From: Sulfurovum sp.
GTDB taxonomy: Bacteria; Campylobacterota; Campylobacteria; Campylobacterales; Sulfurovaceae
Assembly (NCBI GenBank): GCA_027012955.1
Contig: JALUYL010000082.1
Location: forward strand, 1 to 34,560
Length of the DNA: 34,560 bases
Direction of reading: 5' to 3'
Positions 18,589 through 20,670 of this stretch are shown piece by piece; position 1 is the stretch's first letter; every line of letters starts with the position of its first letter. The position numbers and the translations under genes were made by a program. A model generated the notes under the pieces. The model had not been told where the DNA came from. It did not search any database and saw nothing but the letters and a program-made list of their open reading frames with translations.

Positions 18589-18616
18589 AGAAACTACTTA
18601 AGTAGTTTCTCTATAG
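18583..18616. terminator. 34-bp perfect palindrome holding the stop codons of two convergent genes
   Basis: CTATAGAGAAACTACTT (18583-18599) is followed at once by its exact reverse complement (18600-18616). The left half contains the trpS stop (TAG, 18586-18588) and the right half, read on the minus strand, the stop of the 189-residue protein (18611-18613). The RNA from either side would form the same 15-bp stem with a TTAA loop. It probably ends transcription both ways, although there is no T-run. Confidence 0.6.
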
Positions 18617-19180
18617 GTCTTCCAAGGCAGCATCAATTGCCATGCGGATTTCATCATCTACATTGCCATCTTCTTTATTAGAAGTTACTGGAGTTGCTAC
18701 TTCTTCCTCATCGTCTACAATACTGTCTAAAGCATTACGGAATTCATCCATCCCTGGATTGTCATCTGGTTTTACAACAGAATCTTTTTCTATTTTTTCA
18801 ACCTTCTCAACTTTTTTCTTTTTTGGCACTGTTTTTGTTTCTACTTTTTCTGTATAGTTATCCAAATTTTTCATATAAGTTGATTTAGATGTATCAGAAA
18901 CCGTATCATGCAATCTATCTTTTGCCAATTCTGACTTTACATGTACACTGTTTGTTGTATCATCTTTTGTCGGGTCAACTTTTACATCAACATCTGAATA
19001 TTTTTCCATATCATCTAAGTATGATTTGGTCGTTTCTTTTTTCTTAACTGGTGCAACATAGGCAAGGTCTTCAATAAAGTTATCATCTTCAATCATATTG
19101 TATTGGACAATAAGGTATATAATCAAAGCCGATAGAATACCTACCAGTAAGACTGCAAAACTTTCTATTAAATTTTTCAT
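18611..19180 (-). CDS. Membrane-anchored, highly charged protein of unknown function
   Basis: 189 residues; not recognised. An N-terminal transmembrane helix (about residues 8-27, AVLLVGILSALIIYLIVQY) is followed by a long, probably disordered, acidic and lysine-rich region with a PKKKKVEKVEKIEK stretch (about 120-133). Near the end are two similar acidic helices, MDEFRNALDSIVDDEEE and VDDEIRMAIDAALEDL, which could be a binding motif. It is the last gene of an operon with two rhodanese-like proteins (13 bp gap), so it is probably a partner of theirs at the inner membrane. Confidence 0.65.
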   Translation of the reverse strand: MKNLIESFAVLLVGILSALIIYLIVQYNMIEDDNFIEDLAYVAPVKKKETTKSYLDDMEKYSDVDVKVDPTKDDTTNSVHVKSELAKDRLHDTVSDTSKSTYMKNLDNYTEKVETKTVPKKKKVEKVEKIEKDSVVKPDDNPGMDEFRNALDSIVDDEEEVATPVTSNKEDGNVDDEIRMAIDAALEDL

Positions 19181-19193
19181 GTCTAAACCTTAT

Positions 19194-19811
19194 TTAGTTG
19201 TTTTGCACCGTTGTAAATCCTAAGATTTTCCACATTTGGAAACCACCACGATAATATAATATGTGTTCAGCAGGATATCCAGCATCTAGCAATGCTTTAA
19301 TAAACGCAGCTGACTTACCACACCAAAGACCATTACAATATACAGCAATATCTAGAACATTACTTGTTTCAAGAGATCCATCTGACTGACGTTTAGCGCC
19401 AAAAATATGAAGAATTTTGTCAAATTTTACTTTATTGTCTTTCACTCTTAGAGGAATATTTACCGCTGAAGGGATTGACTCTGCTCTATAGCTTGATTTA
19501 GGACGAACGTCTATTAAAATACCTCGTTTTTTATTCACTTTATTACGCATAAAATGAAGTAATTCAACTTCACCAATACTACGAACATTCTCATCCAACT
19601 TTATAGGTTGTATATCTTTACCTGGACGATACTGCTTTGCATATTCTCCAGTCAATTTATGCTTCGTATCTTGAATTCTATGCACCTTTACTGCTTTACC
19701 TTTATGATAGACATAAATATATGCAATATCTGGGGTGATTTTCACCTTGTCATAAGAACCTGCAAAAAGCATCGTTAACGATAACGCTGCCAATAGTGTT
19801 AATCTTTTCAT
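19194..19811 (-). CDS. Exported rhodanese-domain protein, second of a pair
   Basis: 205 residues with a signal peptide (MKRLTLLAALSLTMLFAGS). After an N-terminal beta-rich segment, residues about 80-200 form a rhodanese domain: GILIDVRPKSSYRAESIPSAVNIPL and the active-site loop YCNGLWCGKS with Cys159 and Cys164, then YYRGGFQMWKILGF. The catalytic cysteine is present, plus a second cysteine in the loop, which suggests sulfur transfer or a redox role in the periplasm. Its start overlaps the stop of the preceding paralogue (ATGA at 19808-19811). The two proteins share overall layout and probably arose by duplication. Confidence 0.85.
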   Translation of the reverse strand: MKRLTLLAALSLTMLFAGSYDKVKITPDIAYIYVYHKGKAVKVHRIQDTKHKLTGEYAKQYRPGKDIQPIKLDENVRSIGEVELLHFMRNKVNKKRGILIDVRPKSSYRAESIPSAVNIPLRVKDNKVKFDKILHIFGAKRQSDGSLETSNVLDIAVYCNGLWCGKSAAFIKALLDAGYPAEHILYYRGGFQMWKILGFTTVQNN

Positions 19812-20422
19812 TTTTTCTCCTTAGGTACATATGTTGTTAATCCCAATAGTTGCCATGACTGCATACCACCACGGTAGTATTTCATTTTATCTTTTGGATA
19901 CCCTAGTTTAGCAAGTGCATGTATCGCTGTAGGTGACTGCCCACACCATGCACCGTTACAATAAAGTAAAATGGTTTTAGCATTTGAAAAATCCCATGCT
20001 CCATTTTTCTTTACACCACCTAGTGATTTTAAGACTTTATTCAATTCTGCAGAAGGAGAGAGGAACAGCTTAAATGGAATATTTCTCGCACCTGGTATAG
20101 CTGATTTGAAATACCAATTTGGTAATCTTGCATCAATGAATACCCCTCTCTTTTTTGAGATAAAATCAAGTAACTCAAGTTCCCCGTAAGTCTCAACACC
20201 CTCTGTCACAATAAAAGGTTGGACAAAGAAAGGAGGTGAAGGTCTTGAGGTTAAAGCATAGGTATTGTTCAAGTACGTATTTGGTGTATTGACACGTTCT
20301 ATTTTATAGGTCTTCCCATCTGCTTTTACATTTACATAAGACAATCCTGCTGTAATATCAGCATGATTTGCACTGGCTAAGGCCGTGCTTATTGCAAATG
20401 CGGCAAAATATGATAATTTCAT
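19808..20422 (-). CDS. Exported rhodanese-domain protein, first of a pair
   Basis: 204 residues from the ATG at 20420-20422, chosen because AGGAG lies 7 nt upstream and it gives a proper signal peptide (MKLSYFAAFAISTALASA); an in-frame start at 20452 lacks both. The rhodanese domain (about 80-195) has GVFIDARLPNWYFKSAIPGARNIPF and the loop YCNGAWCGQS with Cys155 and Cys160, then YYRGGMQSWQLLGL. The same C-x4-C loop occurs in its downstream paralogue. It heads the operon and follows a leader resembling a c-di-GMP-I riboswitch, so its expression is probably tuned by a cyclic dinucleotide. The substrate is unknown; periplasmic sulfur handling fits the domain and the likely organism. Confidence 0.85.
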   Translation of the reverse strand: MKLSYFAAFAISTALASANHADITAGLSYVNVKADGKTYKIERVNTPNTYLNNTYALTSRPSPPFFVQPFIVTEGVETYGELELLDFISKKRGVFIDARLPNWYFKSAIPGARNIPFKLFLSPSAELNKVLKSLGGVKKNGAWDFSNAKTILLYCNGAWCGQSPTAIHALAKLGYPKDKMKYYRGGMQSWQLLGLTTYVPKEKK

Positions 20423-20493
20423 TTTATAACTCCTTTTGTCATACAATATCATTTTATAATCTTCAATTCATTCCAAGAAAATGAACACTTATA

Positions 20494-20566
20494 CCGAGGT
20501 AACCTAGCTTTCTTGCAATCAAGAAACTTAGACTTTCCGTAACTCACCTCACGATGAATTTGGCTT
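20494..20566 (-). ncRNA. Probable c-di-GMP-I (GEMM) riboswitch in the rhodanese operon leader
   Basis: Read on the minus strand, the first hairpin has stem TTCATC/GGTGAG (20553-20558 with 20543-20548) capped by the GNRA tetraloop GTGA (20549-20552). CAAA precedes it and TTACGGAAAGTC follows, compared with the GEMM pattern GCAAACC...GNRA...GGACGCAAAGCC. The second hairpin (TTTCTTG/CAAGAAA, 20520-20526 with 20509-20515) leads into GCTAGGTTACC (20498-20508), matching the GEMM 3' signature GC-GGGUUACC. All landmark elements are in order and spacing. Between the aptamer and the ATG at 20422 lies a small hairpin (TTCATT/AATGAA, 20467-20485) without a T-run, so control may act on translation. The match is by eye. 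Confidence 0.7.
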
Positions 20567-20670
20567 TTTCAATACAGTATAACCGTATGAGAATATTCTA
20601 GCATAGATAACATTATAGTTAATGACAATTCAATAACAATTGATAAAAAAAAGATAAGAAAAGAGGATTT

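Follow-up and report, generated by a model that had tools for sequence, protein, structure and literature searches.

From its sequence, the 34,560-nucleotide stretch of DNA analysed here (the window) belongs to a sulfur-oxidising Sulfurovum in which a divergent RNA of a c-di-GMP-sensing class stands ahead of an exported pair of sulfur-transfer proteins. Very probably the leader 5′ of the rhdA-rhdB-anchor operon contains a c-di-GMP riboswitch of class I, the explanation that best fits the arrangement. Its assignment to a known riboswitch class is well supported by sequence comparison, and the rhodanese operon is a target for which no report was found in the open-access literature; this search, with most subscription papers outside its reach, showed among the papers listed no c-di-GMP riboswitch on rhodanese genes in Sulfurovum or in the Campylobacterota/Epsilonproteobacteria at large. 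The genes named for c-di-GMP-I leaders are those of environment, membranes and motility (PMC7266159), and a sulfur-transfer operon under c-di-GMP would link surface life with sulfur energy metabolism in a vent chemolithoautotroph.

The aptamer occupies positions 20495-20574 of the minus strand, where RF01051 matches from 20574 to 20495 over model positions 1-87 of 87 with an E-value of 0.0011 for the window and 36.1 bits, a marginal score given its narrow distance from the gathering value of 35, and the single match over gathering when all 4227 Rfam families were scanned. The original prediction had placed a GEMM-like (c-di-GMP-I) aptamer in this leader and had called for a search with RF01051 and for covariation in orthologous leaders; the search bore the assignment out, and a genus covariance model built with the window left out (R1, described below) recovers the site at 47.1 bits with an E-value of 5.7e-11. 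Read along the minus strand, the parts that had been named also follow one another as predicted, from CAAA through a GTGA-capped hairpin and ACGGAAAG to a second hairpin and GCTAGGTTACC. The first hairpin (20543-20558), drawn from the sequence and the RF01051 match, bears its GTGA at 20549-20552, a GNRA loop as in c-di-GMP-I, and among the orthologues all six of its pairs are changed on both sides. The second hairpin (20501-20534), placed by both the RF01051 and genus-model alignments, carries the bulged G at 20508 of an interhelical pair whose partner is the C at 20539, presumably C44-G83 in Vc2 numbering. If Vc2 numbers are placed on the alignment columns as we assume, the equivalent of A47 is the A at 20536, with G20 and C92 at 20564 and 20499, respectively. 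These three nucleotides are named as ligand contacts of c-di-GMP-I in PMC4744006. Nineteen of the 20 aptamer pairs in the window are standard in the genus-model alignment, the exception being an A.A pair in the second hairpin, where Rfam's alignment flags two non-standard pairs. A loose regular expression for the aptamer core, composed after the site was known, matched once in the window and in none of 30 mononucleotide-shuffled windows. On these comparisons, the window RNA is taken as a real but divergent c-di-GMP-I aptamer.

At least one RF01051 match is present in 72 of the 78 genomes of the genus, the window's own counted, while across an even sample of the phylum matches occur in 42 of 397 genomes and 12 of 68 genera. 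The window's own assembly (1.72 Mb in 110 contigs, 76% complete) holds five matches over the cut-off, and the Sulfurovum genome yields 10 GGDEF and 6 EAL match rows, some of the GGDEF rows being partial or pieces of one gene. Model R1 was built from 34 aligned genus aptamers, none of them a recognised rhodanese leader, with the downstream gene unreadable for three (L011, L014 and L031). The RF01051-type structure pairs 97.9% of cells in this alignment, with both-side changes in 13 of 20 pairs and values equalled by 0 to 2 of 500 shuffles, depending on the measure; the interhelical C-G pair is present in all 34.

Close matches to RhdA (E-value 8.2e-55 or better, 56-100% identity) were found in at least 26 genomes among the matches listed, two of them partial; RhdA proteins of 80-96% identity occur in the closer relatives P0002-P0005. 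R1 detects the aptamer in 15 of the 26 orthologous leaders, that of the window among them, with scores of 34.7-69.6 bits, each time on the gene's strand directly upstream of RhdA; Rfam alone at an E-value of 0.5 detects 14, missing L046. None of five comparison loci, comprising four rhodanese paralogues and a Marinobacterium relative, gives an R1 match. Across the 15 aptamer-bearing leaders the covariation sought beforehand is strong, with both-side changes in 16 of 20 pairs, 92.3% of cells paired (75.5% in shuffles) and 58 cells showing both-side changes (19.5 in shuffles), although this alignment was fitted to the structure and so leans towards covariation. None of 500 shuffles reaches any of the five measures, and controls with slid partners, in which the signal is destroyed, show at most 15 cells changed on both sides, a large gap. 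The bases corresponding to G20, A47 and C92, along with the interhelical C and G, are kept in all 15 leaders, and a GNRA loop is found in 14 (11 GTGA and one each of GCGA, GTAA and GGAA), the loop of L046 being enlarged.

The other 11 leaders are without an aptamer, giving nothing above 9.2 bits with filters off, and by eye six of them retain pieces, namely the 5′ element described below, AAAAAAGCC, or part of the first hairpin. In a tree of 24 RhdA proteins and one outgroup, from which two partial sequences were left out, the aptamer occurs on both main branches (with moderate supports) and its distribution needs five changes. The simplest reading is of an old switch that has disappeared on several occasions, with the operon retained; the rhodanese operon indeed persists where the aptamer is lost, and control by it is thus dispensable. 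These losses, together with the remnants seen by eye, also lend something to the notion that the window aptamer is itself a decaying relic, with little or no ligand response now, as in its relatives that lost it. Among the 121 match rows from 95 sources its R1 score ranks last, and the window RhdA sits on a long branch (0.39). Such a relic is nonetheless quite unlikely, as the key contact and interhelical bases of the window are intact, all but one of its pairs are standard in the genus-model alignment, and its 47.1 bits stand far from the ceiling of 9.2 bits in leaders without an aptamer. Some contact mutations of Vc1 are described in PMC4744006 as having little effect, so that intact contacts are no proof of function.

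An aptamer leads into a rhodanese at none of four other rhodanese paralogues and in none of 20 paralogue neighbourhoods. Three of these neighbourhoods do contain a strong c-di-GMP-I aptamer pointing away from the rhodanese paralogue (L148, 793-875, plus strand; L150, 524-613, minus strand; L157, 410-489, minus strand), each leading into a divergent membrane-protein frame that, as we take it, resembles an NIT-domain sensor.

The expected ligand, from the bases at the contact positions, is c-di-GMP. By E-value, RF03167 (c-di-GMP-I-GGC) ranks ahead of RF01051 in 13 of the 14 Rfam-detected orthologous leaders, the window's among them, which might suggest that the aptamer senses another cyclic dinucleotide, either the ligand of this GGC variant or 3′,3′-cGAMP. 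The two families share a clan and a fold and their scores are close, but RF03167 falls below its gathering score of 59 in all 13 leaders where it ranks first, reaching 35.3 in the window, and its consensus GACGCGAA places G at the site of A47, which is A in every one of the 15 rhodanese leaders, the window's included; membership in RF03167 was rejected on these grounds. The cGAMP (GEMM-Ib) riboswitches of Geobacter likewise share the scaffold, but cGAMP aptamers carry A20, whereas G occupies position 20 in all 15 leaders, and the cGAMP reading was also set aside. A ligand other than c-di-GMP is accordingly regarded as very improbable.

The operon encodes what had been predicted of it, that is, two exported rhodanese-like proteins and a membrane-anchored acidic protein. 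RhdA (19808-20422, minus strand) and RhdB (19194-19811, minus strand) each match the Pfam Rhodanese family PF00581, with 56.8 and 49.2 bits against a cut-off of 22.2, and each has an N-terminus resembling a signal peptide by eye; there is a 4-base overlap between the RhdB frame and the stop of RhdA. Translation of the single-domain RhdA probably starts at the ATG at 20422, 7 nt behind an AAGGAG Shine-Dalgarno sequence (20430-20435, minus strand), and not at the upstream ATG at 20452 given in the open reading frame list. The loops CNGAWCGQS of RhdA and CNGLWCGKS of RhdB contain two cysteines that are invariant in 15 aligned proteins (A, B and outgroup), and the active-site residue C154 is invariant in these as well as in 40 RhdA rows. 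An AlphaFold model of RhdA, of moderate confidence overall (mean pLDDT 68.7, pTM 0.68), is confident mainly in residues 76-190, the rhodanese part, and no PDB sequence match was found at an E-value of 0.01. RhdA falls far short of the NCBIfam model for the PspE thiosulfate sulfurtransferase, at 20.8 against a cut-off of 102. The third gene (18611-19180, minus strand) encodes a protein of 189 amino acids with an N-terminal hydrophobic segment that would anchor it in the membrane and an acidic tail, Asp and Glu making up 23% of its residues; it matches no Pfam family over cut-off and no NCBIfam model at an E-value of 1 or better, and none of the 84 relatives listed bears a functional name.

Among the matches listed, RhdA has another rhodanese match as its immediate neighbour in at least 23 of the 26 genomes. 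Under strict motif rules RhdB is recognised at 15 of the 26 loci and the third gene at 11, and 22 loci have a murI-like frame upstream, several of the loci being short. No functional partner was found beside the operon; in the window, L036 and L038 its neighbour on the upstream side is murI and that on the downstream side trpS, both names being our assignments from the gene sequences.

Upstream of the aptamer, a consensus scan identified a promoter-like site (20595-20622, minus strand; TTAACT-16-TAGAAT with TG before the -10) that would place the transcription start near 20588. The stretch has 23 such sites, this one included, compared with 11.4 in shuffles, and several related leaders have a TATGCTAGAAT-like -10 at the matching position. 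Immediately 5′ of the aptamer lies a 17-nt near-palindrome, ATACGGTTATACTGTAT (20572-20588, minus strand), which aligns in all 15 aptamer-bearing leaders with a mean column identity of 89%, too conserved for a covariation test. It could fold as a 5′ hairpin (P0; -2.6 to -5.1 kcal/mol) or pair behind the aptamer to form an extended closing helix (-5.5 to -13.6 kcal/mol), two mutually exclusive structures. The extended helix is predicted to be stable, with a mean of -10.8 kcal/mol compared to -5.5 kcal/mol for shuffled 3′ strands. Covariation of the closing helix was discarded, as pairs swapped between leaders perform no worse (mean of -10.0 kcal/mol across clades; 178 of 1000 permutations match the native value). 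So was a role of the element as a genome-wide operator, its own genome holding 1 exact match and 17 sites within 3 mismatches against 41 for a reversed control, which shows no enrichment. The near-palindrome is still seen by eye in leaders without an aptamer, for example L053 and L057, and this persistence suggests that it may play a separate role.

In the mechanism proposed, transcription would start just before the aptamer, which would then bind c-di-GMP made by the cell's GGDEF enzymes. Binding would close the P1 helix, formed between the 5′ element (20575-20588) and CGGUAUAA directly behind the aptamer, and this closure would alter ribosome access to, or decay of, the stretch of about 70 nt leading to the start codon and would not act through termination. 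No terminator-like site is found between aptamer and ATG in the window leader, nor is there an unusual anti-Shine-Dalgarno pairing (z 0.0 for pairing of the Shine-Dalgarno sequence with upstream sequence). An expression platform based on an anti-Shine-Dalgarno or an alternative partner was abandoned, with none consistent across the 15 leaders and none in the window.

Activation at high c-di-GMP is slightly preferred as the sign of control. This lean is by analogy with Vc1 of Vibrio cholerae, described in PMC4744006 as an activating c-di-GMP-I leader with no apparent terminator or anti-Shine-Dalgarno. The opposite sign, which shares the first steps of the mechanism, is the less probable but a real contender; here c-di-GMP binding would hide the start region and the RNA would be an OFF switch, as known for Cd1 of C. 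difficile (PMC4744006). Whole-leader folding with the aptamer forced lowers predicted Shine-Dalgarno access by at least 0.1 in L045, L046, L059 and L061 and raises it by at least 0.05 in L051 and L056, and L051 (z -3.9) and L046 (z -2.2) show unusual pairing of the Shine-Dalgarno sequence with upstream sequence; across the 15 leaders these modelled shifts favour OFF, if anything. The signal is, however, absent in most of the 15 leaders and in the window, where forcing the aptamer moves predicted access from 0.62 to 0.61. Sulfurovum is also reported to be without flagellar genes (PMC10045233), and a motile phase with need of rhodaneses is thus less likely.

Beyond the rhodanese leaders, the genes downstream of 118 genus aptamers (the 121 rows after removal of the window and of two duplicate listings) were gathered by a simple downstream-gene rule; eight had no readable gene owing to a contig or stretch end, and the others form 40 clusters. 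Representatives of 30 clusters, scanned with Pfam, contained no rhodanese; the targets with a hit include SdrD_B, Ig-like surface proteins, CAP, NlpC/P60-LysM, PAS, HD and CZB, as well as outer-membrane and response-regulator proteins, and many targets appear lipoprotein-like by eye. The sampled genus targets are mainly surface, envelope and signalling proteins, and no rhodanese was seen by eye in the first frames of 20 riboswitch loci from other genera. Loci with two or more c-di-GMP-I aptamers on the same strand, within some 300 bases, are L015, L016, L022, L025, L072, L076, L077, L083, L089, L099, L107, L108, L112 and L113, in many cases as tandems ahead of one gene. At L004 (G000 contig C6, 9627-11039) an aptamer starts about 100 bases behind an EAL domain, on the same strand as the GGDEF-EAL frame, and is preceded by an ATAC-N9-GTAT element, as in the rhodanese leader.

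As several relatives keep the switch, a signal to settle on a surface probably sets the amount of sulfur-transfer machinery made. Under the preferred sign, settling on solid sulfur would be accompanied by production of these exported two-cysteine-loop rhodaneses, which would carry sulfane sulfur in the periplasm. Two observations on S. indicum ST-419 touch on this proposal: the adjacent rhodanese-like genes IMZ28_RS02435 and RS02440 are up 2.77-2.82-fold on S0 compared to thiosulfate, and S0 particles carry biofilm, with biofilm genes up too (PMC10045233). Genome G001 has one adjacent rhodanese pair among the four matches listed, at 473.9-475.1 kb. Locus-tag index and position in G001 run parallel at about 1 kb per tag, with the rhodaneses (index 487) at 474 kb, hdrB (index 1150) against a frame with a CCG domain at 1,140 kb (another of the kind lies at 350 kb), soxH1 (index 1718) against a SoxY at 1,752 kb and soxH2 (index 2112) against a SoxY at 2,130 kb. 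From these coordinates, G001 is very probably S. indicum ST-419 and the induced pair very probably the RhdA-RhdB orthologues. The S. indicum data offer indirect support for a surface or biofilm link, but the leader of this pair in G001 (L053) has no aptamer by R1, with filters off too, so that induction on S0 there would have a cause other than the switch. The fuller proposition, in which c-di-GMP couples settling on solid sulfur to periplasmic sulfur transfer through a riboswitch that raises a tandem-rhodanese relay in films on S0 grains, is a tentative one and on balance somewhat unlikely. If true, a second messenger would govern energy metabolism on a mineral surface, beyond adhesion, and RhdA and RhdB are two proteins to test for the use of solid sulfur by Sulfurovum cells.

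Exported single-domain rhodaneses are known, for example PspE and Sud of Wolinella. RhdA and RhdB have the PF00581 domain and export in common with these proteins and differ from them in the CNGxWC two-cysteine loop, in the approximately 80 residues before the rhodanese domain and in their arrangement as a tandem pair. With the c-di-GMP-I family typified by Vc1 and Vc2 of V. cholerae (RF01051) the window aptamer shares a fold of two hairpins, a GNRA loop, the contacts G20, A47 and C92 and the interhelical C-G pair; it differs in its divergent sequence, its GTGA loop and its rhodanese operon as target; where the consensus has G-C and C-G pairs, the window carries C-G and C-G. A parallel in theme is offered by the cGAMP riboswitches of Geobacter, which control extracellular electron-transfer genes (PMC8835794, PMC6456294). 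The closest functional analogue is Vc1, the rhodanese leader being likewise one in which neither a terminator nor an anti-Shine-Dalgarno is visible.
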